Assembly: GCA_030248225.1 (NCBI GenBank)
Contig: JASANE010012093.1
Location: 1 to 64,000 of the forward strand
Length of the DNA stretch: 64,000 nt
Direction: 5' to 3'
Origin: Trileptium ribeirensis
Lineage: Eukaryota; Nematoda; Enoplea; Enoplida; Thoracostomopsidae
A program made the position numbers and the translations under genes. Positions within the stretch are counted from its first letter, which is position 1. Every line of letters starts with the position of its first letter. The notes under the pieces were generated by a model, which did not search any database, was not told the DNA's origin, and saw only the letters and a program-made list of their open reading frames with translations. Shown piece by piece: positions 1 through 37,070 of this stretch.

Positions 1-1646
1 TATATTAAATTATAAAACTAGCTATGTAATTATATATAAATATATAAAATATAATAAAACTCATATAATCATCAAAATTCCCCCATCCCCATAAATTCCC
101 CAAAACCTAAATTCCTTAAATAAAATTTATACAAAACACCCTTTTTCTTTTCCCCCACTCTTTTTCCTATAATGTACACCTCATCCACCCTTTTCTTTTA
201 CACACAACCAAAATTCTACCCAAAATCCATTTTTCTCCTTTTTCCCATTTTTCTACTAAAATTCAAACTACCCTCCCTTCCCCAATACCCAACCAAACCT
301 CTCCAAAATTTAATATTTTCTTTCCCTTACCCGATCTATTAAAATATATAAACCTCCCCTTTCCTCTCTTACTTTTTCCTATAAAATTTCCTTTTTCTAA
401 ATTTTCATTTTTCCTCATTTTTCTCCATTTTTCAAACATTCCCCATTCCCTCAAAACTCAACCCACATCCCCTAAATTTTAATATCCTTTTTCCCTTACC
501 ATCCCTATTCATATATCCACTCCACCCCTTTCCCACCTTTCTATTTTCCATAAATTTCCACTTTCCAAAATTCCCATTTTCCCCCAACTTTTCACATTTT
601 GCAAACATCTCCTATTTTATCAAATCTTAACCCCCACTCCTTAAATTTAAAACACAAACTCCCCTACCTACCCCCTTCATCATATTAAAATTTCACATAC
701 TTCTCTCAAACCACACCCCAACTTTTCACCCCTTTTCTCATTTCAAATTTCTTAATTAAATTCCTTTTTAAATTATATAATAAATATATAAAGTATACAT
801 TATATTATCGCGGCAAGCGCGTGTTATATAAATATGATATAGAGTATTGGTGTTTTCGCCGATTGGGCGTCTTCTATATGTATAAATGGTTACTTGTTAT
901 TGTATAGTGAATTTAATGTCAGTTAGTGTATAGATTATGATGATGGTTGCAGTTTCTGGAGTTTAATTAATTACCTAGCTACGCGAGAAGACGTGTCATG
1001 GCTGTTTTATTATATCGACGTCTATTATATAACTTACGGATTCTTACGGGTTTTTTCTTTTCTGTGTGTTCTTGGAGTGCGATTTACGGCAGGGTTAAAG
1101 GCATTGTTTTGGTGTAGTGTAAAGGATTACGATTCTGAGAGAGGAACTTTGTGGCGCTCTCTAGCGAATGTTAGTTGCGAACGACGGAATGTTACATGAG
1201 TTTCGCCTGTGTATTAAATCGCGTTACAAGCTGCCGAGTGAAACATTGCGTTTTTATAACGAGCATTTCGATTTATATAACTAAGACTGAGATCATGATA
1301 AGCTGATATCGTAGAGTCACATCAATCCTCAAGGCAGTGCTCGAAGTTTCTTTCTTTCGTGCGGAATAGCGACGTGAGTAGCGGTACTTGTCATAGCATC
1401 GGTGTTGCTAAGCCATTTGCGAGTGTTAGCGTCAAGTGGTGTGATTTTAATAACAGAGCATTTAAACTACCTGGTTACGTGTTGACAAGCGTCAAGGATT
1501 GCAGGGTATTAAAGCCTGCTCGGTAAGATCAGCGTGTAATATCGTATGGAGTGACGGGAACGCTGACCTAAACTTTTCATTCAACGATATCAGATTTTTG
1601 GACAAGGAGATACTGTACAAATACTGTGGAGTCACATCTCGTCGAC

Positions 1647-1654
1647 TATAAAAA
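1647..1654 (+). promoter_or_regulatory. TATA-like box in 5' LTR
   Basis: TATAAAAA lies 49 bp upstream of an AATAAA and 328 bp before the LTR end, the arrangement expected at a U3/R junction. It is conserved in the other LTR at 15003-15010. Transcription start is inferred, not seen. Confidence 0.45.
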
Positions 1655-1702
1655 ACCCAAACTTTTGGTGATTAGGGTAGCGTTCCGGCACTGTAATTTA
1701 CG

Positions 1703-1708
1703 AATAAA
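1703..1708 (+). promoter_or_regulatory. Polyadenylation signal AATAAA in 5' LTR
   Basis: AATAAA is conserved in the 3' LTR at 15059-15064. In the 3' copy it would end the element's transcript. Confidence 0.4.
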
Positions 1709-1982
1709 GTTATATCAGCGTCCGGCTATACGTGTGACGTGAAGAGCGTAATAGTCGTAATACTCGAGTCGTAGAACAGTGTCGCTGCCAAACTGAGTTC
1801 GTCACGAGTACCTACACCACCACTTTCCTGGTACGCCCAGACCACGAATTCGCGCGCCCCAGCTGCTAGTACATTAATTGGTGGCCTAAACTATATTCTT
1901 TGTGTGTTATAGTAGCGCTGGGGGTCGGAGCGTCGCGTAAGCACAGAGCTACAAAGCCGTTGAAAAAGATTAAGCTCCGACA

Positions 1983-2001
1983 TGGTGGCCATGACGAGGC
2001 C
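1983..2001 (+). promoter_or_regulatory. Primer-binding site candidate
   Basis: The base after the LTR's terminal CA begins TGGTGGCCATGACGAGG. TGG is complementary to a tRNA 3' CCA end, as expected for a minus-strand primer site. I did not match it to a particular tRNA. Confidence 0.6.
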
Positions 2002-2180: not shown

Positions 2181-2538
2181 ATGGACGATACAGCGGCCCT
2201 AACGCCTGGAGACGATACCACGCAGTGGACGATAGCAATAGACAACACAAGTACGCCAGTACCAACAGCTACGGACAGTGGCACTACCTCCATGAGTGGT
2301 ACTACGTTAGAAGCGACCTTGCGTAGGGTAGAGGTAAGCTTATTTGATACTAATCGTAGATATGAGGAGATGACCGACTTGGTACGTGATAGCGTACGCG
2401 ACTCTAGTCGTCAATATGATAAAATTATGGTAGATACGATGGAGCGCGAACGCAAATTCCAAAATTTTGTGGTGCGGCAAAATAATGATTTACAAGAACA
2501 AATAAGACGGCAGAACGACAATATACGCGAGCAAATGA
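2181..2538 (+). CDS. Retrotransposon leader exon: coiled-coil N-terminus, probably of Gag
   Basis: The open frame runs from ATG 2181 to a stop at 2556-2558 (125 codons). The N-terminal ~40 residues are Thr/Ser/Asp-rich. The rest is charged and helix-prone with heptad spacing (repeated Arg, Gln, Asp, Asn), so a coiled coil is likely. Near its end a strong splice donor (ATGA, then GTGAGT at 2539) interrupts the frame at phase 1. A pyrimidine-tract acceptor (CTGCCCTTTGTCAG, ending 3772) restores the frame of the large Gag-protease-integrase ORF. I therefore read this as exon 1 of Gag. The alternative is an independent 125-residue protein. Splicing is inferred from sites and phase only. Confidence 0.6.
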
Positions 2539-3772
2539 GTGAGTGGGGCAATCTTTAACCGACAAAATATCATCAGTTGTGATTGGGTAGCGGTGCACTT
2601 TTATGACGCAATGCGATTCGTTTATATGGATGTACTGGGAGAAGCAATGCTATACAGGAGCAAGGTTTATGAGTGAGACCACTGCGGGGTAATCTTAGCT
2701 CCCATCACCAGTTGCGAGATCTAATAAGCATGGATCCGGTAGCTAACTCACCCCCAACCCGCACCTACCCGACCCTCATGATGTCGGAATAGACGATTCG
2801 GTTTATATGGATGCTACTGTGGTATGATCAACCATGGCGCAGGAACTAGGAATACCAAAAGCAAGGTTTGAGTGGTCTAGCCTACACTATCCCCCCGCCA
2901 CAACAACCCCTAAAACTATAAAAGAGGGCAAGAAGAAGGTTCCGTAACATTAGATTTACCATTAGATAGACCCGGCTAGGGCTGCGCCATCACAAATGTC
3001 GGTACCATTACCTGCAGTGAAACATCATACAACGGAAAAACAGGGGATTGCCAAAGGACTCTAATCACCGTTCGATATGACGCCTAGCATTTGTCCCTAA
3101 TAGGATTTCGTCGGCACCGGTAGTTGTGTCTATCGAGTGTACATGTGTCAGCTCCATCAGCGACTATACTATAAAACGCCGCCATTGGAAGATTTCCACT
3201 GTCATGATCACACCAGTGCAGTATCGGACGGACATACATGCAGCACAATCAATTAGCTGACACCATTATACCTATGTTCTTCGACACCCTATTGAAATAT
3301 ATTAAAAAAGGCGGAAAACTAGCTAACTCAAATTTCAAATGATTACGCTAATGATGTAACCCATAAAGCATGCGTGAAATCTTGCATAGGAAGTGCACGA
3401 CGAAGTTAAAGTCATACTGATCATACAGACAAAAAACGTAAGAACGTCTACAAAGATTCAGTAGCCATTAACTCAAAGTTAAATCGTAGCCATGACACCA
3501 TGTATAAATGCTGATGTGTCCGAAACACTGTATCAATTGCTCCGATACAGTGATGGTGTTCTGTACACTATATCGTTAACGGTGTTAGACAGGCTGTACG
3601 TGGACAAAACTTCCACATGGCGGGCAACCGATAACGTAAACGCCGCATCATAACGGTTCCAGCTTCGGTGACTGTAGTTTCGGCTAGTGTTAGGACGGTA
3701 CCAACTAGTACTACTTCTGCTGCGTGTACACGCTGTTCGTGTACTCACGCTGTGGCGTCTGCCCTTTGTCAG
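2539..3772 (+). other. Predicted intron or untranslated spacer between leader exon and Gag
   Basis: This 1.23-kb stretch begins GTGAGT and ends TTTGTCAG. Stops occur in all frames and no protein motif was seen. Donor and acceptor phases match (1 base plus 2 bases). If it is not spliced, it is simply a spacer and Gag would start at ATG 3799. Confidence 0.5.
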
Positions 3773-6700
3773 CGCCTGTGACGGCGGCTGTTCCTACAAT
3801 GCCACCTATTGTAGTTAACGTGCCACCTCCGAAGGAACCAGTTAATATCGAAAGGTATGATGGCACAGCAGACTTTGCGACATATTTCCGTAGGCTGGAA
3901 ACGGAGTTTGAATTAGCAGGGGTGGAAAAGTCCAGTGATAAGTTTCGTACATTGCGTAAGAAATTAACGGATGCTGCTCGCAGTTTTATTGAGTTGTTAA
4001 TGACTGGTCCCGATGCACCGGAGACATACGAAGACCTAGTGTACGAGCTGCATGAACGGTTCGCAGAAAGTAGAGAATTCGTAGATGAAGTTCAGAGGTT
4101 CCAACAAATGAGTCAAAAAAGTTCCGTCGCAGATTTTGTTGATGAGTTGGAATTGCAGTGGCGTAAGCGAACTGTTCCATTGGAACTCGGTGATAGACAC
4201 GCCGCTAATTTATTGCGCAATACGTTTTTGCGAGGAATACGACGTGGTTTGCGTTCGCGCCTGATCCATGGTGATCAGTGGTCTTTTTATGAGTTGAAAC
4301 GTCGAGCGGTACAAATTGAGCGCACAGAAAAATTATTAGCGGGACCCGAAGAAGATGGAACTTTGCCACGACCCACAAATAGATCGGTTCCCCAACGATC
4401 GTGGAGACCAAGCCCAAACGTTAACACTAACTGTGGTGCCGTTCCCAGAAGGAACGAAGGTCGGCAGGCTCCAATGCGCATGAGTAGCGGAAACCAAAGT
4501 AATGACGTGAGAAACGCCCGCGTTATGGAACGAACTTCTGCGTCCTCAATCGTGTGTTATGATTGTGGTGCCACAGGGCATGTCCGCGCGCGATGTCCAT
4601 ATCGAGACGCACGCCTTCGTCAACAAGAACGCGGTGTAGTGCGAGAAGGGATTTCTCGATCACCGCCCGTGCAACGTTCGTTAAATAATGCAGAGTCCAC
4701 AACACCTAAAGAACTGTGGAAGTGTTTCGTATGTGGTAAACCGGGTCATTTTGCCAGGGATTGTCGTCAACGATCCGTAAATGTGGAAAAACAATTAACT
4801 GGAGATAATAGACGCCGGCCGGAAGCTAAGGCAGTACAATCTGTAGCTTTGGAGACACTAGTTCGCCAAATGAATGATGTAGAGCGTCGCATGGACGGGC
4901 GGATGAACGACATTATTTCTCATTTGAAGTCGGACAGAAATGTGGATGAGTCTGAAATTTTGCATTCACTATCACCAGTAGTGTTGCCCAAGAATTCACG
5001 TCATCAAGTACTGGTAGAAAAGGTTCCCGAACGAAACTTCGAAGAAAATTCGGAATTACAAAATGATATGCAAGTTTCGATAGCACAGGTAGAGACGTTA
5101 GCGCGTCCTACCAAATCGTGTTTTTATGTCGACGTGCAAATAGATTCGTATAAGTTACGGGGACTGGTGGATACTGGAGCTCAAATGACGATCATGCTCC
5201 AAGAAGTTTATGAGGAAAATTTCAATCGGTATAAGTTGAACTCCGAAGTGATTCAGGTGTTTGCTTTCGATGGTTCCCCAGCTAGTAAGACATTGGGATG
5301 GTTCGAAGCATTGGTACATTTCGGAGAGCAGTCCCAGTATGTGCAAATTCACGTTGTACCAGATATGCCAGTTGCGATCGTTATCGGTGATCACATGTTA
5401 CGAAAATTCCAAACTATAATTGATTACCAGAGGATGCGAATCCTGGTCAATGATAAACTTGTACGATCGTGGTCATTAGTCCAACGTAAAGAAACAACAT
5501 CTGCGGAAACGGGAACAGGAAAAGTGATTAAGTCCGGAAAACTAACTGAAGTTCCAGTGGGTGCTTTTCATGTTTGTAGGGTATCTGTGGATACCGAAAT
5601 TCCACCGGAAAGCACGAAGTTGGTACCGTGTAACATTACGACCAATTATAATGGGCAAAGTGTTATGGTAGAGTCCGATACCGAGATGAGATTTCGGCGA
5701 CCTATACTTTGTCCGAATGCCGTAGTTAAAGTACAAGAGGGTATGGCTTGGGTACCTGTTACCAATTTGGAACAGCGATCGTATAAGGTAAAAGTTGATG
5801 ACGTAATGTCGCACGTTACTGAGATAGTGGATACCGTTGCTGTTACATCAACGGAAAAACAAGCGATGACTGATGTCGACTATTCTAAAACCGTTACCAA
5901 TAAAGTTCAGATTAGAACAAGGGAAGCCAAGCGTTTGTATCGGGAATTAGCAGCGGAAGATTTGCAACAACAGATCCTGTTGCAGGAAGATAGGTTCCAT
6001 GTCCGGCATGGTATTTTGTACTGTGTAAGCCGAAAACGTAGACCTGTTCGCGCAGAAGCGTGCGAATTTCATTTGGTACTGCCGGTAGAATTCCGTGTAG
6101 TCGTGATGGAACAAGCTCATACGACTAAATACGCCGGTCATGTAGGATACAATCGAGCCTTGGCTAAGCTCGAACGGAAGTTTTATTGGGTCACAATGAA
6201 GAAAGACCTCGAAGCGTTTATTAACGCATGTGTTCCATGTGCTCGATTTAAACCTGGTCCTAATCGTCGTGGACCGTTACAACCAATTCCTGCGATGGCA
6301 CCATTTCATATGGTAGGCGTAGATGTGATAGGTCCATTACCCGTCACACGATCTGGAAACAAGTACATTGTGAATTTCATAGACTATTTCACGAAGTGGC
6401 CAGAAGCTTTTGCCACACCTGATCAAACTGCTAGGACCATTGTCGACTTATTATTGAATAAGATCGTACCCCGACACGGAGTACCGCGTATAATTTTGTC
6501 GGATCAAGGACCGGCTTTCACGTCTGAATTATTCACGTCAGAAGCGGCCAAGTTAGGAAGTCGAACGGTGTTCGCTACACCGTATCATCACCAATGTAAT
6601 GGTCTTGTGGAACGGTGGAATCAAACGTTAATGGCCATGATCAAGCCACTTACTGAATTAGAGCCAAATAATTGGGATTCATACGTCGATAGCGCACTTT

Positions 6701-7398
6701 TTGCGTACCGAACTACGGTACACATATCAACGGGCCAAACCCCGTTTTTCTTAATGCATGGTCGCGACCCAGATTTACATGGAGAAAACCCGTTATTGTC
6801 CATAACGGAAGGTGGAAGTCCAGACCAACATGTACGGAAATTGTTGGATACGTTGACTAGCACTTGGAAAGAAGCTAGTAAGTCTGTGCGTTTGGCCCAG
6901 GATGCCTATAAGCGATATTTCGATCGAAGAGCGCGCATTCGTGACTTTTTGCCTGGCGATGTAGTATTAATGCGAAGGCCGGAGAAAATCGATTCTCGTA
7001 GGATCACCAACAAATTTCATCCGAATTTCGAGCGACTATATCGAGTAGTCAACGTACAAGGTCCTAATTTAGAGGTAATACGGTTAGGTGATGCGCGACG
7101 CAAAAGTAAGGTCTATAACAAAAGTCTGTTCAAACATTTTGGTGGTGAGCCGCGCGATTATTTAGAATACGAGCAACGCTTACGCGCGATTGAAATCGAT
7201 AGCGAAGAAATCGATTGGTTCTGCGGAGAATGTGGCCAGAGTTACGAGGAGGACCTCCGAGTAGGTGAAGATGATATCAATTGGATCGAATGTGATTACT
7301 GCCTCGAATGGTATCATTTTCGATGTGTAAAGTTGGAAAAAGAGCCGGAAACGACATTATGGTATTGTCTGGCCTGTGTACAACGGTTATGTACATAA
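3773..7398 (+). CDS. Gag-protease-integrase-PHD polyprotein lacking RT/RNase H
   Basis: One uninterrupted frame. Residues are counted from codon 3724; the first ATG is 3799 and a spliced start is likely. The N-terminal ~200 residues look like a Gypsy Gag core. CCHC zinc knuckles lie at ~278-291 and ~334-347. The aspartic protease DTGA has its catalytic Asp at ~483. A linker typical of the segment before RT follows, but instead of ~500 residues of RT and RNase H the frame runs straight into the integrase zinc-binding domain (H799, H806, C836, C839). The integrase core is D867, D927, E963, that is D,D(35)E. The C-terminus has a Cys/His cluster (~1167-1219, CGEC, CDYC, YHFRC, CLAC) that fits a PHD finger. 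Protease and integrase look catalytically intact, so loss of RT is not general decay. Confidence 0.85.
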
Positions 7399-8049
7399 AC
7401 GGTAAATGTTATATCATTATGGGTACTTCTTATTCTATTGTTCTATTTTCCGGTATTGAATGAAGCATGCCAAAGCTGGAAGACGCGTGCGGTATGGTTT
7501 TTGGTAGCGACGAAGTAATGATGTCGCTAGCTGGTTGGTCGCTAATGCTGACCGGTTAAAAAGATCCGAGATGGTGGCCGTACGTACGTGAACAGGTAAA
7601 TTGATTTGCCTTTCCTTCTTTTTCTGTTTTTCCGCTATCAAACAATGAACAATGAGTAGCTTCAGTAATGTTGAATCCTGATTGTGGATCGATATTGCTG
7701 TAGCGGCGAGTTAACTTCTGATGGAGATTTATAGTGGAGAACGCCCCTGCCCCAGCTGAGAACTGTCTAATTCCATCGGAGTAGTGAAGAAGTGAAGGTG
7801 CTCGCTACGTAGATGGAGTGTTATTAATATTGAATCCGACATGGTGGCGTTCTAATGGTGTGCTTCATAAACTGTTATAAACAATTATTGCATTTTAGAT
7901 TTCAGGCGATCATCATATACCGACGGCTACTTAAACTGCGATACGGTGTGTGTAATCAATAACAATAATAACAATTGTTATATTCTGCGTTATTCGACGA
8001 ACTATTTTACAACGGTTTCGACAATTACAATGTCACTACAACTGCTGAA
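7399..8049 (+). other. Non-coding spacer inside the retrotransposon
   Basis: About 650 bp between the integrase stop and the next plausible coding exon. I see only short frames. It could hold a promoter or splice acceptor for the downstream genes, but no site stands out. Confidence 0.4.
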
Positions 8050-8203
8050 ATGGCGGACTCGAATTGGGATAGCGGTAGTGAAACCAGGTCCTCAGAGGGT
8101 TCTGATTGGTTGTCCGACCTGGAGTCTGAGCAGGGAGATAACCCTCTTGAGCGTTCACTTAACGGGATAGAACCACAGTTAACTTGGTCGGAGGGACAGC
8201 AGG
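8050..8203 (+). CDS. Acidic leader exon, possibly spliced to the exonuclease
   Basis: From ATG 8050 the frame encodes about 51 Ser/Asp/Glu-rich residues and then hits a stop at 8212. A GT at 8204 (phase 1) and a TTAG ending at 8266 would remove 63 bp and put this exon in frame with the exonuclease ATG at 8269. Phase and intron size are plausible, but the donor (GTACAC) is weak. The exonuclease may instead start on its own at 8269. No family recognised. Confidence 0.4.
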
Positions 8204-8268
8204 GTACACCGTGAAAGGATCGTAATCATCCCGTATGGAATTTATATGCGTGGACCAGTGGGTTAGAA

Positions 8269-9354
8269 ATGGTGGGTCGAGAGTGGATGCACCCCGCTAG
8301 CGTAGTGGTGGTAGACGCCCGTGACCAAATTGAGTCAGCGATAGGTATTATCGAGCGGTCAGCTACCAACTTAATAGCGTGTGATATGGAAGGTGTAAAC
8401 ATCAGCTACCGACAACAACAGCAATTTCGAGAAGCGTGGGAGAAATATTTAGATACGCCTGAGAAAGATCCGTTTGACGTCTGCTGGCGATGGTTGCCAC
8501 GTAACGCGCGACTATGGGTCGATCCAAAATGGTTAGCATATGCAGCAGGTTGGCAACGTACAGCAGCAGCTACATTACAAGTCGCCACGATCGAAGGAGT
8601 CTTCATCATTTTTGATTTGATGGCACTTGGTCCAGATATGCCTGCAGCATTATATGCGTGTATTGCGTCAGAAGCCCGACTTAAAATATGGTGGGCGATG
8701 AACAATGATGAAGGATTTTGGAACGTGCGGTATTTGCAATACAATCAACCGTTCCCACACGCTAATTCCATGGATCTGCAAGCGGCAGAAGGTCGTCGAT
8801 ATAGTTTACGACGATTTTTCTTCCTGTTTACCGGACGCATTCGGCAAGATCCGACGCCGTATGGTACAACATTGTTAGGAGGAATCCGTGTACGACAAGT
8901 AGGTCCTGGAAATTGGGTGCTGAATTTTGAAGAGTATCGACGATTCGTCCGATATAGTGCCCATGATGTCATGCTCATTGATGGAGCATTGTTTATTGCA
9001 CATCGACGTGGTACGCCTCCACCGATGGGACGTCACGATGTTAATCGTTTATGGCATTTGATTGAACAATTTCCGCGCATATTTCGAGCGTTTACAACGG
9101 ATGCGCGTGGCTTAACAGTACGAGTTAATCCTGATGCCGTATCAAATCGTCGTGGTTATCAAGAAAGTATTGCCGAAAAAGTGGCTCAATGCGCTGGTTA
9201 TTGGCGGCGCAAGGGCCGATGGAATGTCGAAGCCATAGCAGCCTATATCAAATTAATGATCAAGATAATGGCGAAGCTGCTTTTGCAATCGACCTCGGAG
9301 GAAATCTACATCGCGATACTGATCGATTATTTGCAGCAACAGCAGCACAATTAA
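8269..9354 (+). CDS. DEDDy 3'-5' exonuclease (RNase D/WRN/EXD1-like) encoded by the retrotransposon
   Basis: 361 codons. Exo I is Asp39 and Glu41 in ACDMEGVNI, a sequence very like the DxEGVN core of EXD1-type proteins. A beta strand ending IFDL follows (~113-117). Exo II is Asp147 in a D-x3-W/L helix after KIWW. Exo III is Tyr229 and Asp233 in YSAHD, so the enzyme is DEDDy and all metal ligands plus the tyrosine are present. Members of this fold remove nucleotides from 3' ends of RNA or DNA; EXD1 itself is a catalytically inactive piRNA-pathway partner. About 55 residues inserted between the first two strands are unusual. The last ~40 codons overlap the next ORF, whose frame reads more naturally there, so the genuine protein may shift frame near 9,230-9,300. 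It sits where env normally lies. Confidence 0.75.
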   Translation: MVGREWMHPASVVVVDARDQIESAIGIIERSATNLIACDMEGVNISYRQQQQFREAWEKYLDTPEKDPFDVCWRWLPRNARLWVDPKWLAYAAGWQRTAAATLQVATIEGVFIIFDLMALGPDMPAALYACIASEARLKIWWAMNNDEGFWNVRYLQYNQPFPHANSMDLQAAEGRRYSLRRFFFLFTGRIRQDPTPYGTTLLGGIRVRQVGPGNWVLNFEEYRRFVRYSAHDVMLIDGALFIAHRRGTPPPMGRHDVNRLWHLIEQFPRIFRAFTTDARGLTVRVNPDAVSNRRGYQESIAEKVAQCAGYWRRKGRWNVEAIAAYIKLMIKIMAKLLLQSTSEEIYIAILIDYLQQQQHN

Positions 9355-11816
9355 ATCGACAGTTGGGCCAAAATATGCGATTGGATCCTATTGACTTGGA
9401 TCATACGCCGGTTAGTGAAATTCCGGAATCCGAAATGCGCTATAATCGCGATTATCTTCCGGATGGCATGGATGAATTTAACGCATGGTACGAAGCGGAG
9501 AAACGACGACGAGCTAAACGCAGTCGACGTCGTTCGCGTATACAGCGACACCAAGATGTCGTCGCTGGTCCTGGAGATGAAACGGAGTTAGAGGAACGGC
9601 GTGAGGATATGTTCGACGAAGAGATGAACCAACAAGCTATCCAATGGGAAACCGAAGGAGTATCTGTGCGTGAAATTCGCGACCGAATAATGATAGCTTA
9701 TGATGATCATTATGGCGGTGCACGTGTTGTTACCCGCCCAGCTGTACTGCAACGTTTGGATCGTCAGGTATTACGAGAAGAAGACGCAGTTTCTAATGCT
9801 TCATCGGCTGCTACAACACCGCCTGCGGTTCGCACACCGGAACCTGCATCGGATGACTCGGTATGCATAATAGGATCTGTAACGGTCACTGCTAGTCCAG
9901 TAGATCCTATCCAATATCATTCTACTTGGGTCGAAAATGAGCAGATTGCTCATGAAAATCAGCGAAAGTGTCAGAAAATGGGAGGATTAGCAGCGCAGGA
10001 AAGCCTAGCAACCCTGATGGGGATTACTGTAGCTTCGGAATCCGTGACTGAGTCGGTTGGTAGAAGGAAAACTCCTTTACGGATTGTGAGTGTAGATTCG
10101 TCCGCAGTAACATTACCAGCCCAGGAAACAATGGATCAATCCACACTAAGTAGGATACGGTCTGAATCAGAAACAGCGGTAGTGTCCTCGAGTGGATTAA
10201 CTTTACCAGTGTCTACCGCGTCTAGCTTAGTAACAGTAGCTCAGGCACAACCTGCGATGTCAGATATTGTGCCGATGACAGTACGACCAGTTAGGGGACG
10301 AGGGAGAGCTAGTATTATGTTCCCACCTAGCCTTCCCCAGTCGGCGCGTATGCGTTTGTCGCGCGCTATTCGAGCGCCGTTTCGACAACCTATTTCAGTG
10401 GTGAATCCAGCACGACCGCGTGTTATGGACATGCTCAGTAATCAACTAGTTACTGTCGCCTATGAACACGTTCAACAACAAGAACAAGTTGCGGCTGTTG
10501 CCGAACAACCGCCTGCTACAGTGTTGACGAGTGGTCAGGAAATTTCGCCTTCGTTGCACCTTGAGTTGCAGTTGGGAAATTTGCGTGGTACGGAGTTGGC
10601 ACAAGTACGTGAACAATTGCAACAGGCCGTACCTCCATCAGCAGTGCAATTGGATGGTATGCTATTAATGCAGCAAATGCAATTAAATACGCGAGTCGAT
10701 ACTGTGTTGCATTATTTGCATCGGATGGGCGAAAGCTACCGAGCTCAATTGGAAGCCCGGCAAATGGAACTTGACCACGCACATCGTCAAAATGCCGAAC
10801 TCAAATTGCGATTGCGGGAGAGAGAGTCGCCGGAACACAAAACGCGAGGAACGCAAACCAAAAAGAAAACGCAACGAACTGCAAGTCGTCAAGCGCGTGC
10901 AGAACGTCGGTACGACTACGAAACAGTAACTAGCGAGTCCAGCGATAGCGTTCGTGAAGCGAGACGACGACAGCGAGGTAAACAACGTGCCTCATCAGTT
11001 ATTGTACCACGGCAGCGACAGGAAGTAGTCTATCATGCGGAGCAACAATCAACATCGGCAGCAATTTTTGCGCCGTCTTTTACGTCAACGCCAGCCGTGT
11101 CAACGTTGACGGTGGCTACCGAGAAACAACGAAAAGCTAGTGATATGGAAATTTTTGAGGAAGCGTCAGCCGTTACGCCTACCAAACCAGTTTCAACAGC
11201 ATCGGAGGAACAAGGAGCGACTGCTATAGCAGCAGTGCCCCCGGCTTTACAGCCAGCATCGACACAACGTGATGCCGGTCCATTAGCGCTACCGAGCGAA
11301 CGACGAAGTGGAACGGAAACAACCTCACTACATTTCAATGGTAATGACCTACGAACCGGTCGTATTACACCGTTTGGTAACCGGTTAATTTACCATTATT
11401 TCACGTTTTACCAAATTGGGTTCAACGAGCCGATGCCGCAACGTATGAATATGTTGTATCAACATCTGCGCGATGAGTTAAAACGCGAATTCAAACAAAT
11501 TGGTGAACGTGGACGGCATATTAGCGAACGTGATTTAGTTGGAATTTTCTTCAAATGGGAAGAACGCGTTCGAAATATTATTTTTCAAAAACAATGGGAC
11601 GTTGTTATTACGACAGAACTATACGATCTTTTCGTACGTCGATTAGCGAATATGATACGTGGCTTCGTTTACGAAATGCTGCGACGGCGCAGCATTGCGA
11701 TACAGTATTTCCCACAACTACTTTTCATTGGCTTTAGTCGACGAAAATGGGAAAGCGACGTCCAACGAGATATGCGTCGTTTGCCGATACGCGATCGGGT
11801 ATCTCGAGTCAAGTAG
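9189..11816 (+). CDS. Large retrotransposon ORF of unknown function (coiled coil, basic and low-complexity segments)
   Basis: 875 codons, frame -1 relative to the exonuclease ORF, which it overlaps by 166 bp. Not recognised. The first ~60 residues after the overlap and an acidic/basic patch (~110-150, many Arg and Lys) precede a long Ser/Thr/Val/Ala/Pro-rich region. Then comes a Gln/Glu/Leu-rich coiled coil (~480-560), a strongly basic Arg/Lys tract (~560-625), another low-complexity stretch, and a conserved-looking folded C-terminal domain (~720-875) rich in Arg, Phe and Tyr. It lacks a clear signal peptide or membrane span, so it does not look like an envelope protein. A nucleic-acid-binding structural protein would fit but is only a guess. 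Confidence 0.55.
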   Translation: MRWLLAAQGPMECRSHSSLYQINDQDNGEAAFAIDLGGNLHRDTDRLFAATAAQLNRQLGQNMRLDPIDLDHTPVSEIPESEMRYNRDYLPDGMDEFNAWYEAEKRRRAKRSRRRSRIQRHQDVVAGPGDETELEERREDMFDEEMNQQAIQWETEGVSVREIRDRIMIAYDDHYGGARVVTRPAVLQRLDRQVLREEDAVSNASSAATTPPAVRTPEPASDDSVCIIGSVTVTASPVDPIQYHSTWVENEQIAHENQRKCQKMGGLAAQESLATLMGITVASESVTESVGRRKTPLRIVSVDSSAVTLPAQETMDQSTLSRIRSESETAVVSSSGLTLPVSTASSLVTVAQAQPAMSDIVPMTVRPVRGRGRASIMFPPSLPQSARMRLSRAIRAPFRQPISVVNPARPRVMDMLSNQLVTVAYEHVQQQEQVAAVAEQPPATVLTSGQEISPSLHLELQLGNLRGTELAQVREQLQQAVPPSAVQLDGMLLMQQMQLNTRVDTVLHYLHRMGESYRAQLEARQMELDHAHRQNAELKLRLRERESPEHKTRGTQTKKKTQRTASRQARAERRYDYETVTSESSDSVREARRRQRGKQRASSVIVPRQRQEVVYHAEQQSTSAAIFAPSFTSTPAVSTLTVATEKQRKASDMEIFEEASAVTPTKPVSTASEEQGATAIAAVPPALQPASTQRDAGPLALPSERRSGTETTSLHFNGNDLRTGRITPFGNRLIYHYFTFYQIGFNEPMPQRMNMLYQHLRDELKREFKQIGERGRHISERDLVGIFFKWEERVRNIIFQKQWDVVITTELYDLFVRRLANMIRGFVYEMLRRRSIAIQYFPQLLFIGFSRRKWESDVQRDMRRLPIRDRVSRVK

Positions 11817-12127
11817 CCCGAGTTCGTGACTATGTCTTTCCGAATACGGAGTATCAGCGTCTACGCGACGACGTTGATAGGTTGGAAAGTCAATTAAATG
11901 ACCAACAAACGCAGGGAGAACCAGCGCCCGAGCAACGGGAACAATTACAACAGTTGATTGCTCAAGTTTCGAGACAAACGCGACAACAATTTTCAGCTGC
12001 GTTTATGAACGAACTTCAATTCGTTACGAAATGGTATGATCGACGTCACGATTGTCCGGGGCAACCGTTATCTATGCCCCTGGAACATGATTGGCCGCTA
12101 TATTTGCCGAAACCACGTCGGAATTAA
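11747..12127 (+). CDS. Small retrotransposon ORF, possible C-terminal continuation of the preceding ORF
   Basis: 126 codons from ATG 11747, in frame -1 relative to the ORF it overlaps by 70 bp. The protein is charged, with a probable coiled coil (~38-80, many Glu, Gln, Leu, Arg) and a Pro/Trp-rich tail. Both junctions downstream of the exonuclease shift by -1. I saw no canonical slippery heptamer in register at either. It may be a separate short protein or the end of one long ORF split by an indel. Not recognised. Confidence 0.45.
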   Translation: MGKRRPTRYASFADTRSGISSQVARVRDYVFPNTEYQRLRDDVDRLESQLNDQQTQGEPAPEQREQLQQLIAQVSRQTRQQFSAAFMNELQFVTKWYDRRHDCPGQPLSMPLEHDWPLYLPKPRRN

Positions 12128-13160: not shown

Positions 13161-13207
13161 AGGTTGTTGTTACCCATGACGGGACGTCATGGGCTTACCA
13201 AGGGGGG

Positions 13208-15337
13208 TGTTGGGGCTGGTGCCTTTTTCATCACCAAATTTTTCTTTTTCTTTTCACTAAAGGCCGCCCCCACGCCGCCCTGGTATCCCCTGTCGCCCTC
13301 GGCATGGCATATGAGCGTAATATGTACGGAAACTAATATATATATCTTACTATATATATACTATATATATTATATATAAATATAAACTAGCTATGTATTT
13401 ATCTATAAATATCTAAAATATAATAAAACCTATATACTTATTAAAATTCCATCATCCCCATAAATTCCCCAAAACCTAAATTTCTTTAATAAAATTATAT
13501 AAAACACACTTTTTCTTTTTCTCCACCCTTTTTCTTACAATATATACCTTACCCACCCTTTTCTTTTACACTCAACCAAAATTCTACCCAAAATCCATTT
13601 TTCTCCTTTTTCCTACTTTTCCTACTAAAATTCAAACTACCCTCCCTTCTCCAATACCTAACCAAACCCCTCCAAAATTTAATATTTTCTTTCCCTTACC
13701 CCATCTATTAAAATATATAAACCTCCCCTTTCTCCTCTTACCTTTTTCTAAATTTTCACTTTTTCCTCATTTTTCTTCATTTTTTATATATTCCCCATTC
13801 CCTCAAAACTCAACCCCCATCCCCTAAATTTTAATATCCTTTTTCCCTTACCACCCCTATTCATATATCCACTCCACCCCTTTCCCACCTTTCTATTTTC
13901 CATAAATTTCCACTTTCCAAAATTCCCATTTTCCCCCAACTTTTCACATTTTACAAACATCTCCTATTTTATCAAATCTTAACCCCCACTCCTTAAATTT
14001 AAAACACAAACTCCCCTACCTACCCCCTTCATCATATTAAAATTTCACATACTTCTCTCAAACCACACCCCAACTTTTCACCCCTTTTCTCATTTCAAAT
14101 TTCTTAATTAAATTCCTTTTTAAATTATATAATAAATATATAAAGTATATATTATATTATCGCGGCAAGCGCGTGATATATAAATATGATATAGAGTATT
14201 GGTGTTTTCGCCGATTGGGCGTCTTCTATATGTATAAATGGTTACTTGTTATTATATAGTGAATTTAATGTCAGTTAGTGTATAGACTATGATGATGGTT
14301 GCAGTTTCTGGAGTTTAATTAATTACCTAGCTACGCGAGAAGACGTGTCATGACTGTTTTATTATATCGACGTCTATTATATAACTTACGGATTCTTACG
14401 GGTTTTTTCTTTTCTGTGTGTTCTTGGAGTGCGATTTACGGCAGGGTTAAAGGCATTGTTTTGGTGTAGTGTAAAGGATTACGCTTCTGAGAGAGAGGAA
14501 CTTTGTGGCGCTCTCTAGCGAATGTTAGTTGCGAACGACGGAATGTTACATGAGTTTCGCCTGTGTATTAAATCGCGTTACAAGCTGCCGAGTGAAACAT
14601 TGCGTTTTTTTATAACGAGCATTTCGATTTATATAACTAAGACTGAGATCATGATAAGCTGATATCGTAGAGTCACATCAATCCTCAAGGCAGTGCTCGA
14701 AGTTTCTTTCTTTCACGCCGAATAGCGACGTGAGTAGCGGTACTTGTCATAGCATCGGTGTTGCTAAGCCATTTGCGAGTGTTAGCGTCAAGTGGTGTGA
14801 TTTTAATAACAGAGCATTTAAACTACCTGGTTACGTGTTGACAAGCGTCAAGGATTGCAGGGTATTAAAGCCTGCTCGGTAAGATAAGTGTGTAATATCG
14901 TATGGAGTGACGGGAACGCTGACCTAAACTTTTCATTCAACGATATCAGATTTTTGGACAAGGAGATACTGTACAAATACTGTGGAGTCACATCTCGTCG
15001 ACTATAAAAAACCCAAACTTTTGGTGATTAGGGTAGCGTTCCGGCACTGTAATTTACGAATAAAGTGTATCAGCGTCCGGCTATACGTGTGACTTGAAGA
15101 GCGTAATAGTCGTAATACTCGAGTCGTAGAACAGTGTCGCTGCCAAACTGAGTTCGTCACAAGTACCTACCCCACCACTTTCCTGGTACGCCCAGACCAC
15201 GAATTCGCGCGCCCCAGCTGCTAGTACATTAATTGGTGGCCTAAACTATATTCTTTGTGTGTTATAGTAGCGCTGGGGGTCGGAGCGTCGCGTAAGCACA
15301 GAGCTACAAAGCCGTTGAAAAAGATTAAGCTCCGACA
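13208..15337 (+). repeat. 3' LTR (2,130 bp)
   Basis: Begins TGTTGG after the polypurine tract and ends CCGACA. It matches the 5' LTR throughout, including the G-poor first part, the TATA box (15003-15010) and AATAAA (15059-15064). It lacks about 20 bp that the 5' copy has near 380. Confidence 0.92.
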
Positions 15338-18905: not shown

Positions 18906-19865
18906 ATGACTGAAAGAACAACTCGAAGTAGTGAATCCAAAGTGGCCAGTAATGATATATATTGCTATGATCCCAAATGCGCCACTCGTGTTATAAATCA
19001 ACAGTTTGGTGACTATGTCGTATAGTGCAAGCTGTGTCAACGCACGTTTCATCAGCAATGTGCTGATATAACAGTCGCTGTCGCCAAAGAGCTAACCAAA
19101 GCTTCAAATAATCTTCAATGGACTTGTAGTCACTGTGCGCCGCGTCTAGAAAAACTTCTAGACGGAGTTCTTATGGTAGACCAAAAAGTTGATGATTTGG
19201 CAAAGCGTGTTGAGGCACTGGAAAGTTCTGCAGAACGCTCTTCTAATCCTACCAAGGAAAATTCTGTTTCTTTGGTCGATGTGGCCAATGAATTTGCCGA
19301 CATCGAATATCGCAAATCTAATCTCATTATCTTTAAATTGCCGGAACCTCCAGAAATATATGTGCAGAAGGATGAAGACATGGAAACTGTACGTAAAATT
19401 CTTGATATTATTCGTATTAATTCTACTACGGTTCATGTAAAAACGGTTATTCGTATCGGCCAAAGGTCTGCAAATGTCACGAGACCGCTTAAAGTGGTAT
19501 TGGAAAATGAGACTCAGGGGGACGCTGTCTTATCGAACTGTAAGCACCTGAAAGACAGCATCTATAAGTCTATAAGTGTCAAGAAAGATCTGACTAAACA
19601 CCAAGTTATGGCTGAGCGTGCATTGCTTAAGGAACGCGACCAACTAATTGCCGCCGGTAAACAAGTCTCCATTAGAAATCGCCGAATTGTCAAGTTACGT
19701 TCCGTTCATAATGAGCAACCGCAGTTAGCCACCAGCGCAGCAAATCGTAACGGATGCAATACTGCTAGTGAAGCGTCCACTTCTAGTACCTGTGGCCCTA
19801 ATCTGAATGTGCCAGCTCCTACCGGCTCAAATACGGCTCGTCATTTTTTAGAGCACGGTCAGTAG
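18906..19865 (+). pseudogene. CR1 ORF1 (PHD-like finger, coiled coil)
   Basis: The frame starts at ATG 18906 and has one in-frame stop (TAG at ~19,024), then is open to 19,865. Cys/His pairs (CYDPKC, CKLC, FHQQC, CSHC) form a PHD-like finger. A heptad-rich helix follows (~19,180-19,260), then a segment with SNLIIFKLPE that resembles the ORF1 RNA-binding domain of CR1 elements. The protein would bind element RNA. It is broken by the stop inside the finger. Confidence 0.7.
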
Positions 19866-19879
19866 CATTAAGTGATACC

Positions 19880-22800
19880 TTGTATAACTCAAATTTATCT
19901 AATTCTACACGCTCATCATCATTATTTTCTGTACATCAATCTGTAAATACTGTTAACTGCTTTAATAATTTGAATTTTTCTAACAATTTAGTTTCTACTT
20001 CATGCTTTGTTACTAACGAGCTCTGTAATTCAAGTCATCCTTTATCTAACGTTGACGTTTCACGTAGTGAACGAGAGCCTAGTATTAATTTCCGATCTAC
20101 TAATGCAAACTTTGTTCCGAATGATAAGTACGTATCGTGCATTTTGTTAAATGCACGTAGCATAGTTAATAAATTTCAATTATTTCGCCAGTATGTTAAT
20201 GTTATTGATGACCTGGGTGTCATCGGGGTCATGGGGTCGAGCAGATATTTCTAACCATGAATTTGAACTACCACATTTTTCTCTTTATCGGCGCGACCGG
20301 TATAACTCCCTTGGTGGCGGTTTGTTACTGTACATTGCCTCTTATTTAAACTCATCCTGTATATCTACTGAAGCTTTCACCGATGAAATATTAGCAGTAT
20401 CAATCTCGCTCAGTGGTTGTGACGTTCTGTTGGTTGTGTTATGTTACCGTCCTCCATCAAGAGATCGAAATCAAATCTGCAACTTTGTCACAAGCTTATA
20501 TCGTGTTCTTAGTATTACACACACAAGACTGCTATTTTTCGGTGATTTAAATTTCCCGGATATCGACTGGAATTTGTTTATGTGGCCTCCTTACTGCGAT
20601 GATTTCATGAAATTAATCCAAGATTGTGGCCTGCATCAACATGTCACTGAATACACCAGACGCTTTACTGTGTTAGACCTGGTCTTCTCAAATATTCCAG
20701 AAATGATCCATGACATTGATATTCGTCCTGGTCTAGGCACCTCGGATCACTATACTGTACACTTTAACATGCTTTTGTACACTGCTATTTCGGTTAATCG
20801 CTCGTATAACGTAAAGTACAATTTGTGGTGAGCAGACTGGATAAGAGCTAATTCATTATTCACTGAACTGTGTTCACACCTTACTGCAGACGCAGCTTTA
20901 AGTTTTGATTCAATTCAAACTTCAATTTTGCGCACACTTGAAGCGTGCGCACCTAAACAATGCACAAATCGTCGTCGTCGGAACCTCCCCTGGATGACTA
21001 GTGCAGTCGACCGTGCCATTAGACGACAAAAAATGCCTACAGATCTTGTCAACGTTTCGCCACACAACGAGCATGGAATATGTATAATAAACGTAGCTTA
21101 GATGTACAAAATCTTGCCACAATTGCATCATGTCTTTTGATCGAAAATTGGCGACAAATATTAAGTCGGACCCTAAGTCCTTTTGGCGTTATGTTAATTC
21201 GCAAAAGCGCCTGTCCCCTAAGATAGGGCCACTATTACGAACTGACGGATCCCTAAGTGTTAATGACGTTGAGTGTGCTGAATTGCTTAATAACTATTTT
21301 TCTTCAGTCTTCTTAGACGAAGATATTGTCAACATGCCAAACTTCTACTATGAACTGGATGGATGTAAATCATGTCTTTACATGTACTTTCTAATGTTAA
21401 CCCTAATTCGGCTACCGGTCCTGATGACGTCCCTGCTCGATTTTTGTATGAATGTCGTGTGCCATCGCTACATGTACATTTTTCCAATTATAATGGACAG
21501 GTTAACCCCAATTGCGGCCATCGGTCCTTGATGACGTCACCTGTTCGAATTACCGCTTTGTATGAATGTCGTCATGCCATCGCTCCTGCCCTGACATCAT
21601 TTTTCCAATTATCAATGGACACAGGATTCATCCCGCAATTGTGGAAAACAGCTATTATATGTCCAATTTTTAAGAGCGGCAGTAGGAACGATTGTTCGAA
21701 CTACCGCCGATAAGCTTAACCTCAAATGTGAGTAAAGTTATGGAACGTTTGATATCACCTGAATTAGTCACTCATGCGACCACTCACAATATCTGGAACA
21801 AGTCGCAATATGGTTTTGTGCGTGGTCGTTCATGTGAGATGCAACTTGTTGAGTATATCAATTTCTTGTCGTCAATACTTGACAGTGGTGACTCGGTCGA
21901 CGTTATCTACCTTGATCTCCGAAAAGCCTTCGATCGGGTACCACATGAAAGGCTCCTTATTAAACTCGAACGTTATGGCGTCCGTGATACGTTGCTAAAC
22001 TGGATCAGAAGTTTTTTTAACTGGTAGCGACCAATGTGTCTCAGTAAATGGGTGTAAATCATCGCATTGTTTAATGTCATCTGGGGTCCCTCAGGGTACC
22101 GTCATCGGTCCAATACTATTTCTTTATTATATTAATGATCTTGACGAAAATGTATAAAGTAAGGTCCTTAAATTTGCCGACGATACCAAACTTATTCGTA
22201 GAATCCATAGACAACACCACTCTATTGATGTCGAGGACAAGTCAAATGATCTGATTGGCTTAACACAGTACGCAGAAAACTGGTTATTTGATTTCAACGT
22301 CAATAAATTTGCTTGTATGCATTTTGGCAACAGAAATCCACAGCTGCATTATGAATTGCGCGGCCAAGCTATTCCGACCGTTGACTACTGTAATGTCCTA
22401 GGTGTCATTGTTTGCAGCAATTTAAGTGTTAGCCAACAGTGCGCTAAGATTAGCAAAGTTGCTCATAAGATGTTAGGTACACTTCATTGCACTTTACGAT
22501 ATCAGAACGCCGATGCTTTTCTTAGCCTATATTTTGCGTTGGTGCGTCCGATTGTTGAGTATGCCAGCCCTGCATGGAGCCCTAGCTATCGACGTGACAT
22601 TGAGCGCATAGAGTCTGTTCAAAGACGTGCCACACGATTTCTTTATCAACTGCGTGACAAACCTTATCATGAACGGCTCTAATATCTTGGTATTCAATCG
22701 CTGGCTGTTCGACGCAGACGAGCTGACTTAATCCTTCTTCATAAAATGATGCACGGCTTGATTGATTCCGACTGGTCAAACATGTTTTCTCTCGCCTCAG

Positions 22801-33968: not shown

Positions 33969-34399
33969 GGTAGGTTTAAGTACTGCATGACTATTATGCA
34001 GGAGTAAACTTAAGCTGCGAGGCTCACCATATTATTTTGAGAACAGCGATTTGCGATAGTGTACAGTGAACAGAAAATAGGACACTGTTCTCTAACAACA
34101 CTGTATATCGTGCCAAAAGAGGATGGTTGGCGACGCACGTTAAGCGTACTCATGCATTATGACTTGTCATCGATAGGATAACTGTTGATTAGAGTTCGAC
34201 CGAGTGTGAATGACCGAATACCGAAATTTTGGTTCCAACCATATTGTTCGGGTTATTTGTGTCCACGTTTGTTTGAGTTCAGCGAAACGGGGTTTTTGGA
34301 ATAGTTGTTTATTATACGTTTTACGCAATATTATTGCCGTGTGAACTGAGTGCAAAATGTGTTCAGTAGTGTTGCAATGTGTTTAGCATTATTTTCAGG

Positions 34400-37070
34400 G
34401 CCTCAGATGGATTTGTTTGTCGTACCTTCCATCGAGGATCTCGCTGTCAAAATTAAGCCTCCGCAAGCCGATCCGGGTGTTGCGGGCAAGAAGTCTAAGA
34501 AACGGGCAATCCGGGGTGGACGCTGGGTGGGCAGCTGAATTACCGTGGCTGCAATTCATCTACAGGGACAATAAGATTGTTGGTTTAGTTTGCCGTACAT
34601 ATCGTGATAAGGCGGATACGCTCTCAGTGTCAGATGTAAAAGCACTCTTTTCGAAATCCGGTTTCGTATTCGTGGTAAAAGCGTTTGATAATTGGGCTCG
34701 GGGTAGTGAGCGATTATTTCAGCATGAATTTGGAGACCATTATTCCAATTCAAAGTATCCGAAGCCTAAAGATAACAAGGGTGTTGTTGCCAAGAAACGA
34801 CTGCGTGAGTTACTCGTGGACCACCCGCACGAAACGCCGCATCAGAAATGGTGGGCAGAATCAACCGTACGCCGCACAGTTGATTTGTCGGGTTGGGATA
34901 TTATGACGCAAATGAAAGTTAGCAACTCGAAGGCCGCCTCGAAGAATCGAGCAGCGATGAATGTTTTGGTCCAGTTGGCGCTCAAAATGATCTAACAAAG
35001 ATGTGCACCTGCGGAGCGATTTAAGCGTGAGGTTGCATTTTTGTGTCAAGCTGGTGTCCCTGCTATTGCCCGCTTTAAAACTCGTTATACGTCGCAGGGG
35101 GCCATCAGTGAACTTTGTGAATCGTTGCACGTGACAACAATGTATGGCCTTTACGTAGATATGACATTCTGCGAAGATAGTGAGCCGATTTCATTTGGAA
35201 TAATGATTGATCTGGCGTCAACGTCGTCTACAAGGGAACGGATGGCAGTTTGCATTCGATATGTTACTAGCAGGGATGGCGGTGAAATCGCTGAGCGCTT
35301 GCTGAAGGTGTCCCGTGTCAGTTCCAAAACCGGGTTGGCCGTTATGGAGGCGATCACTGACGCCCTTGATTGGTTCAACCATTTGATGAGTGCTCTTTGT
35401 GCCGTGTGTCCGTTTTTATTTCCGCCAAGTGGACCAAAAAAGCTCTCGCTTCAAAATTGTTCTTCCTACGGATCAGACGGCGGCGGTGGCGCGCGGTCGT
35501 GCTATATTAGCGCCATCTGCCGCATCATGGAACACAATCCTCGCATCACAACCTGGTGGTGTGGAGCGCACTGGGTTCAATTAGCTTCCAAACACGCGTC
35601 GCAGGCTACCACATTTGCGAAGGCTCGTTATCAAGCAACGAAGCAACTCCAGCATCTGTTGACATTATCGCCTGAAGTGGACCGAGTATTCAAACAAAGC
35701 CAAGCAGTCGAATATAATTTGAAGCCCAGCACCGAATCCTCGTTTAGTGATGTTGCCATGTTCAAGTGGGAGAGCGAAAGAGACATTTTAACGAAAGAAG
35801 CGACTCTGCACAAGCCTATCGCTAGAACTATTCGCCAAATTCGAGAAAATGCGTCGGATCCCAATAGCAGTCGTTTCTTGTCACATAAGTTGTCGAAAAT
35901 GGTTATAAGCCTTCAGCGTATCCTGTTGCTCTGAAGTTGGACACTTTGGACATCGTCGTAAAACTCATACGCAGGACCGAGATGACGCGAACGGAACTTA
36001 CCGAATATCAAAACGACGCGGCATCAGCGAGGTCGCGGCTACAGCGACTACTAACGACGGACGGCCAGTTGTACAATGACGCTAAGGAAACGCTGCACGA
36101 AAACCAACAATTTTCCGAATTTGTCGATGATGTTAGCAACCTTGCCGCTGTGTTCACCGAAGTCGGTGCTGAGAAGAGAGCGCTGGTTCAGGCGTTCATT
36201 GACAAAATTTTGGACGCATCTGACGCGTGATAACGACGTTAAGCTCAAAGGTTTTGAATTGCTGTCGGTTGAGAACATGTTGATTTCAGTAACGGAACGT
36301 GACGAATTGCTGGACTATGCAATAGAAGCCGAACAGTGCCTTATCAACATCTATTGCAAGCCAGTTGCGTTTAAGGCTCAGTGGCCGGAAGCAGCCGGCC
36401 AGTTATTTGTCCTCAGTCCGTTGTGCTCGCAGGCCCAGCTGCGTAACGATATCGAACAACTCAAATACACGATGTTTTCGTTGTTGCAAATGACGGATAC
36501 TAGGTGGACAACCCGTACTCTTTTGCTTAGACTGATCAAAAGCAGATCGCCATGTCTTGTTGCTAAACCTGTCATAACGAAAATTGTGAAAAGTTACCTT
36601 GAACTGCCGATATCAACGTCAAGCGATGAAAGCGTATTTTCTGCCGTTAAGGTCGTGGTTAGCCGCCTTTGTAGGAGCCGCAAAGATACTACGATTAACA
36701 ACTACATCACAGTCGCGATGGAAGCGGAGCCTTTCGAAACATTTGACACAGACTTGGCAGTTACGGTTTGGGAAAATATTTTCAGCTGTCGCCGGTTCGC
36801 TTTAATACCTGGAAGTCGTCAGCTTGGCGAAAAGCCAATCCTTCGGTCGATGGCAAACACATCCGAAGGTCGCGCGCTAAAATATGTTGTCTTCGCCAAC
36901 ATAAAAAGCTACGCCGAGCAGTCGCCATGGATGATGATGATGACGACGGCGATGACGAAGTCATTGCGCTCCATGAAAGTGACAACTTCGGTGTGCCGGA
37001 AGATAATGATTCGGACATTGACGAAGAGTGTGATGATTTGTAAGATACTGGGGCCCACGATTTTCAAGGA
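34400..37070 (+). pseudogene. Broken hAT-superfamily transposase
   Basis: Pieces in several frames. An N-terminal segment follows a TTTTCAG acceptor (34,400) and contains WLQFIYRDNKIVGLVC, like the zinc-finger region of ZBED/TTF hAT proteins. The RNase H-like core has FGIMIDLASTSSTRERMAVCIRYV (~35,190-35,260; compare the family's D-x-S-T-D segment) and a degenerate GYDGA equivalent (~35,470). CGAHWVQLA (~35,560) corresponds to the family's C-x2-H. The hATC dimer domain is LPISTSSDESVFSAVK (~36,605) with SRLCRSRK. An acidic tail (~36,930-37,040) follows in another frame. Frameshifts at ~34,520, ~34,995, ~35,935 and ~36,230 kill it. Confidence 0.75.

Follow-up and report, generated by a model that had tools for sequence, protein, structure and literature searches.

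A high-copy Ty3/Gypsy-type retrotransposon of the nematode Trileptium ribeirensis with a strictly conserved third open reading frame and a candidate DEDDy exonuclease domain

The window analysed here comprises 64,000 nucleotides of the enoplid nematode Trileptium ribeirensis (assembly GCA_030248225.1, contig JASANE010012093.1, positions 1 to 64,000 of the forward strand) and holds at its left end a copy of a high-copy Ty3/Gypsy-type long terminal repeat (LTR) retrotransposon. A 361-residue open reading frame (ORF) of this element, at positions 8269-9354 of the + strand, had been read in a preliminary description of the window as an LTR-element gene for an apparently active DEDDy 3'-5' exonuclease. 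The frame is present as described, with Asp-39, Glu-41, Asp-147, Tyr-229 and Asp-233 at the positions claimed, and it lies 3' of the integrase between LTRs that are 95.8% identical. It also takes the place of env, as an exonuclease-like ORF 3' of pol without a transmembrane-like segment. The reading favoured here, with somewhat better than even confidence, is that the window holds a dead Ty3/Gypsy-type copy whose third ORF (ORF3) most likely encodes an N-terminal DEDDy 3'-5' exonuclease domain of the Egalitarian/EXD1/RNase D kind.

Two copies of the element, on contigs C1715 and C8949, were read end to end and measure ~17.2 and ~17.0 kb, respectively. Their LTRs span 2.3-2.5 kb (2.1-2.5 kb including those of the window), the first LTR begins with TGTT and the last ends with CGACA in both, and the copies are flanked by the 5-bp target duplications caaat and gtttt. 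Since these ~17-kb copies are bounded by LTRs and target duplications, ORF3 is part of the element. A primer-binding site (PBS)-like sequence is located 3' of the 5' LTR in both complete copies, and the PBS-like 14-mer occurs exactly 225 times in the genome (117+108) against a single occurrence of its reversed control; no tRNA was matched to the PBS-like sequence. A G-run forming a polypurine tract stands 5' of the 3' LTR both in C1715 and in the window copy, while C8949 displays a C-run at this place and its 3' LTR lacks the TGTT start. The pol frame of copy L009 contains, by Pfam, the protease, reverse transcriptase (RT; RVT_1), RNase H and integrase followed by a weak terminal PHD match, and gag was read in the window frame; the resulting order, gag-protease-RT-RNase H-integrase, fits the Ty3/Gypsy type. 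The LTR itself contains an internal direct repeat of ~250 bp (71.5%), at window positions 233-482 and 402-651.

The window copy is dead, because its ORF3 is interrupted by a stop codon and two frame breaks and its pol lacks RT and RNase H; the description as apparently active can thus not apply to it. A Pfam profile scan of the window pol frame detected neither RT nor RNase H, and comparison by blastn with L009 locates the loss in a deletion of 1,824 bp, carrying both domains, at a 7-bp repeat. All seven copies compared at this site (L009 and L057-L062) retain sequence there. The 361-residue ORF is only a fragment, as its ATG is internal to a longer ORF3 frame that is open over 1,384-1,386 codons in seven copies, and its last ~37 residues come after a frame break of the window copy. 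Many genome matches to the 361-residue protein stop at residues 322-329, where the window frame shifts, about a dozen extend to residues 359-361, and 11 of the 13 copies aligned past the shift continue in the other frame, the exceptions being L002 and L028. The ORF boundaries originally called are therefore an artefact of decay. The 5' LTR is incomplete because base 1 of the window is base 1 of the contig (C8019). The features of the window copy are collected in Table 1.

Table 1. Features of the retrotransposon copy in the window, with the evidence for each.
Feature	Position	Strand	Evidence or remark
5' LTR, left end cut	1..1982	+	95.8% identity to 13371-15337; ends set from other copies
PBS-like sequence TGGTGGCCATGACGAGG, directly 3' of the 5' LTR	1983..1999	+	comparison with other copies
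125-residue ORF upstream of the gag frame	2181..2558	+	no family match above curated cut-off
gag (CCHC), aspartyl protease, integrase (H2C2, rve) and C-terminal PHD finger in one frame	3724..7398	+	Pfam
Junction of the 1,824-bp internal deletion at a 7-bp repeat	5952..5958	+	blastn against L009; junction sequence
PHD finger at the integrase C-terminus	7231..7377	+	PF00628, E 0.0045 in the window and 4.5e-4 in L009, both below curated cut-off
ORF3 remains in three frames (7972-9255, 9168-11813, 11780-12124)	7972..12124	+	tblastn with the 1,384-codon frame of L010; stop-to-stop frames
In-frame stop codon in the ORF3 leader	8212..8214	+	stop-to-stop frames
Exonuclease-like domain, residues 12-245 of the 361-residue ORF	8302..9003	+	parts align in register to profiles; dN/dS 0.04
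Exo I-like D39-x-E41	8383..8391	+	aligned to Exo I of the EXD1/Egl and combined profiles
Insertion of ~50 residues (48-100) relative to EXD1/RNase D, separating Exo I from the following strand	8410..8568	+	gap between local matches 13-50 and 103-121
Exo II-like D147	8707..8709	+	RNase D-type profile, aligned in register
Exo III-like Y229-x3-D233	8953..8967	+	read in the sequence; no profile alignment extends there
Polypurine tract AAGGGGGG before the 3' LTR	13200..13207	+	comparison with other copies
3' LTR, TGTT...CGACA	13208..15337	+	limits set from other copies

A search of the genome (687 Mb in 20,229 contigs) with the 361-residue protein, at E <= 0.001 and with 113 of 568 candidates scored, returned at least 118 matches at at least 113 places, window included. 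Intact ORF3 is a single frame of 1,384-1,386 codons 3' of pol, whose first ATG is codon 26 or 27; the seven copies that represent it were selected because their match displayed a frame of ~1,384 codons, and all were fetched. Among the best 90 integrase-PHD places, taken from 152 matches, 53 are followed on the same strand, at most 4 kb downstream, by a listed match to the exonuclease region, and for the other 37 none is listed. ORF3 sequence is nevertheless found in all 11 stretches (~900 bp) fetched from the 37, a twelfth place lying beyond the end of its contig. In nine of these stretches ORF3 sequence is seen on either side of an internal deletion, which takes part of the domain in eight cases and starts 3' of the exonuclease-like domain in the ninth, L088. 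In the other two, L091 displays the downstream part of ORF3 alone and the sequence of L095 ends after ORF3 residue 173. The deletion junctions are recurrent, one being common to L089, L090 and L093 and another to L087 and L094. Since their junctions are common to several copies, these five can be read as non-autonomous deletion derivatives that have apparently proliferated. Two more diverged copies, L092 and L097, carry Asn at the position of Asp-39. Repeats of 6-9 bp are present at three junctions (that of pol, that of L087/L094 and that of L088), the others having no clear repeat. Introns or splicing were considered as the cause of the RT loss and of the ORF3 deletions and were rejected, as no consistent GT..AG was seen by eye and repeats stand at the three junctions.

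The preliminary description had proposed measuring the ratio of nonsynonymous to synonymous substitutions (dN/dS) across copies, and this revealed strong purifying selection on the exonuclease-like part. By the Nei-Gojobori method the pooled dN/dS of the seven intact copies is 0.043 in the exonuclease region (ORF3 codons 100-423) and 0.082 over the whole of ORF3. For pol in these seven elements the value is 0.083, with 0.012 and 0.038 in two RT windows, these pol values being rougher because some rows are partial (602-1,614 codons). ORF3 protein is thus kept about as strictly as the polymerase. In a wider set of 48 exonuclease-region rows, the 25 that are stop-free with at most three gapped codons form 300 pairs; across three bands of dS, the median dN/dS is 0.04, 0.06 and 0.09. 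Four copies assigned to a distinct subfamily (L017, L018, L019 and L027) differ from L010 by a dS of 1.66-1.96 and a dN of 0.09-0.11. Outside the window, 34 of 49 distinct copies (54 rows, five of them duplicates) retain all five residues of the predicted active site. Three LTR pairs are 91-96% identical, yet no pair among the 25 stop-free rows has a dS below 0.1, and the family therefore reads as many parallel element lineages rather than one recent burst.

The relationship of the domain to DEDDy exonucleases was probed with small home-made profiles built from PDB chains and host exons, of EXD1/Egl type, of RNase D type and combined. With the EXD1/Egl profile, residues 14-49 align through Exo I and place Asp-39 and Glu-41 on the catalytic pair. 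The score of residues 1-60 was reached by 2 of 1000 shuffled sequences, that of the whole domain by 2-3 of 1000, and those of residues 95-200 and 95-245 by 32 and 45 of 1000, respectively. The RNase D-type profile puts Asp-147 on the Exo II aspartate with a low score, shuffles reaching the value of the whole domain in 3 of 500 cases and that of residues 95-245 in 4 of 500. In a further test the score of the domain was reached by 10 of 1000 shuffles with the combined profile and by 7 of 1000 with the RNase D-type profile. Profile-profile comparison, with 60 column shuffles for each test, aligned residues 13-50 to template positions 4-39 of the combined profile (0 of 60) and residues 103-121 to positions 43-61 of the EXD1/Egl profile (2 of 60). 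These two segments, which come from two different profiles, are colinear and nearly adjacent on the template. When residues 1-60 were aligned alone by hhalign, column shuffles reached the score in 0, 0 and 40 of 60 cases for the three profiles, the EXD1/Egl profile giving 0 and the RNase D-type profile 40; for residues 96-250 the three profiles gave 3, 40 and 40 of 60. Of the five residues claimed to stand in the context of Exo I, II and III, the Exo I pair is thus in register, Asp-147 is in register at a low score, and Tyr-229 and Asp-233 are reached by no profile alignment.

Several results weigh against this identification. No DEDD match to ORF3 was returned by searches of Pfam (E <= 1 or 10), NCBIfam, PHROGs and PDB sequences, so that the Pfam check proposed in the preliminary description came out negative. 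A genome scan with PF01612 gave eight matches, apparently host exons, and none in ORF3; a PDB search with a 10-row ORF3 profile produced chance matches to proteasome chains only (best E 0.11). Protein searches with residues 70-440 of the long frame and with the 361-residue ORF (E 1 and 10) found no ORF3 homologue within their length and shared-word limits. The match of residues 1-60, the Exo I piece, to the RNase D-type profile was equalled by 39 of 500 shuffles, and with this profile a control segment, ORF3 424-743, scored about as well as the domain (9 against 7 of 1000 shuffles); with the combined profile the control gave 31 of 1000. The HH-suite probabilities of the home-made profiles are 0.1-7%, and the top RNase D-type hhalign match is off register, placing residues 84-94 or 86-93 against the region of Exo III. 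The structure comparison that had also been proposed was uninformative, the single-sequence AlphaFold model having a predicted local distance difference test value (pLDDT) of 41 and a predicted template modelling score of 0.33; the strand-helix-strand with which it begins is as expected for Exo I, but Foldseek with this model listed no useful DEDD enzyme match among the best 50. Finally, the catalytic columns are no more conserved than the domain average (mean column identity 96%, among close copies), and conservation alone therefore does not mark them as catalytic. As no score exceeds the family cut-off for a DEDDy exonuclease (PF01612 / Egl-EXD1 type), the domain is a candidate and not a member. 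Judged largely from the motifs by eye, a DEDD fold of the ORF3 N-terminal domain appears quite probable, and the DEDD identity is likely, though unproven.

The alternative that ORF3 contains no DEDD domain and is an unrelated structural or regulatory protein, in which the five residues coincide by chance, draws on the lack of support from library profiles and from the AlphaFold model, on weak profile scores that shuffles equal for some pieces and on the control that scored about as well. It is nonetheless unlikely, as separate segments follow, in order and in register, Exo I, the next strands and Exo II, and a YxxxD is present further downstream in the sequence. In a second alternative, rated as improbable, the DEDD fold would serve RNA binding or protein contact without catalysis and ORF3 would be a scaffold of the ribonucleoprotein (RNP). 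EXD1 and metazoan Maelstrom are described as inactive DEDD derivatives (PMC5408684), and it is EXD1/Egl-type sequences that the Exo I region matches; in contrast to the EXD1 chain examined, which lost D-x-E, ORF3 keeps the full D, E, D, Y, D set in the 34 of 49 copies. The same resemblance of Exo I to EXD1/Egl, together with selection on the whole of ORF3, could also be accommodated by a putative suppressor of host small-RNA silencing that trims or destroys piRNA intermediates, a role that seems more doubtful still; interference with piRNA silencing had been among the suggestions of the preliminary description. An env-type membrane protein, suggested by the position 3' of pol, is very improbable, since the L010 frame contains only four N-x-S/T sites in 1,384 residues and no strongly hydrophobic segment (the maximum Kyte-Doolittle mean over 19 residues is 1.78, at 'LQVATIEGVVIIFDLMALG' within the domain). 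Chance insertion of host sequence into one copy of the element, which the existence of copies without part or all of the domain might recall, is refuted by the at least 113 places, by the 53 of the best 90 integrase-PHD places with a listed match at most 4 kb downstream, by the ORF3 sequence in 11 of 11 fetched places without such a match and by the dN/dS of 0.04. Copies lacking the ORF had been named in advance as a sign of such an insertion; copies without the whole domain do exist, but those examined keep ORF3 sequence, mostly with internal deletions, and therefore do not point to chance insertion.

The preliminary description knew of no Gypsy elements with such an enzyme. DEDDy ORF3s had, however, been reported in 2017 by Rodriguez, Kenefick and Arkhipova in the bdelloid rotifer LTR retrotransposons Juno1/2 and Vesta2/5 and in Athena/Terminon elements (PMC5408684), so that a DEDDy ORF3 in an LTR retrotransposon is an idea known from rotifers. 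Their paper suggests 3'-end processing of element RNA, gives Maelstrom and EXD1 as catalytically inactive DEDD derivatives, places a dUTPase between protease and RT in Juno and Vesta with LTRs of 159-551 bp, and describes variation that was mostly neutral, the clones behind it being env-like and GDSL-like and not of the DEDDy ORFs. The rotifer report is cited by PMC6338049 and PMC6431247; in open-licence PMC literature no other primary report of DEDDy ORFs in LTR retrotransposons was recognised (subscription papers being outside this scope), and a query for the PHD finger found no paper. Like the bdelloid elements, the nematode element has an extra ORF 3' of pol, with a predicted RNase D-like DEDDy exonuclease and no membrane segment. 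In contrast to Juno and Vesta, its LTRs are 2.1-2.5 kb long and no dUTPase is listed in the L009 pol. It further differs from the bdelloid elements by the PHD finger on the integrase, by an ORF3 of ~1,360 residues with a long tail and an insertion, and by intact DEDD residues, more than 100 matching places and a dN/dS of 0.04. Judged from the descriptions, it is the long LTRs, the PHD-bearing integrase, the long ORF3 and the measured selection that set it apart from the rotifer elements.

Egalitarian and EXD1 (PDB 9uju, 5fiq) offer the closest parallel to the domain, with an N-terminal Exo I, D-x-E-G-V/I-N in Egalitarian, followed by strands and the Exo II aspartate in the same order. ORF3 differs from them by the ~50-residue insertion after Exo I and by the lack of a score above the family cut-off; the EXD1 chain examined has no D-x-E catalytic pair. 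The preliminary description had the element capture a host EXD1-like gene. Host EXD1-like exons are present, and their solved relatives are Egalitarian, EXD1 and a CCHC-type domain protein (7c45); a blastp comparison of these exons with ORF3 gave nothing significant (best E 0.43, off register). An origin by capture from this host is therefore unsupported, and capture, if any, would be old or from elsewhere. Scans of viral and prokaryote contigs gave no ORF3 match.

Relatives of the polymerase were taken from the best 120 of 7,730 RT-RNase H matches at E <= 1e-20 (8,000 scored). The nearest pols among these 120, from JGI/ENA records, are 55-60% identical over RT-RNase H, and the named relatives listed include the pseudoscorpion Cordylochernes (up to 50%) and the coral Oculina (52%). 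A PHD-type Cys/His motif lies near the pol end in five of the six nearest pols read: in P0048 and P0065 it is a listed PF00628 match, in P0046, P0059 and P0063 it was seen by eye, and P0042 ends before this position. A PHD finger at the integrase C-terminus common to the nearest Gypsy pols suggests a PHD-bearing Gypsy clade. None of the 120 listed relatives has ORF3-like sequence within the same protein (best phmmer E 1.9; DNA 3' of the pols not covered). In P0065 a NADAR domain (ribA/ribD-fused, PF08719) stands right after the PHD, the place taken by ORF3 in the nematode element.

Elsewhere in the window, ORFs judged by eye only resemble a non-LTR element (19026-22682), a DNA transposase (34387-37074), an ISXO2/IS1595-like transposase (57058-57720) and a minisatellite (57680-58337). 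A decayed nuclear copy of mitochondrial COX1 lies elsewhere in the genome, at G000:C17193:64554-65603.

For the element with a DEDDy-type ORF3, the following course may be proposed. ORF3 would be expressed after pol from a separate, perhaps spliced, message, as a protein of ~1,360 residues in which a DEDDy-type N-terminal domain with its ~50-residue insertion precedes a long low-complexity tail that is basic in part. Fold and catalysis are predicted from the sequence. Tentatively, the protein would work within the RNP and trim element RNA or cDNA at its 3' ends. It could probably act in trans, because some of the copies with a partly lost domain have junctions in common and thus appear to have multiplied. 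The wider proposal, of a Gypsy lineage in which a DEDDy exonuclease is obligatory for replication, acts in trans on RNA or cDNA 3' ends by trimming or even proofreading and is selected about as strictly as the polymerase, is rather unlikely to hold in full.

An extra enzymatic ORF found in a few copies could not be distinguished from cargo. The large selected family described here makes the question testable, because it combines more than 100 matching places with a subfamily at a dS of 1.7-2.0 and a dN of ~0.1 and with a dN/dS of 0.04. The recurrent derivatives without part of the domain suggest that the protein can be provided in trans. Should the fold be confirmed, the T. ribeirensis element would constitute, beside the rotifer elements, a further system for the use of a 3'-5' exonuclease by retrotransposons.
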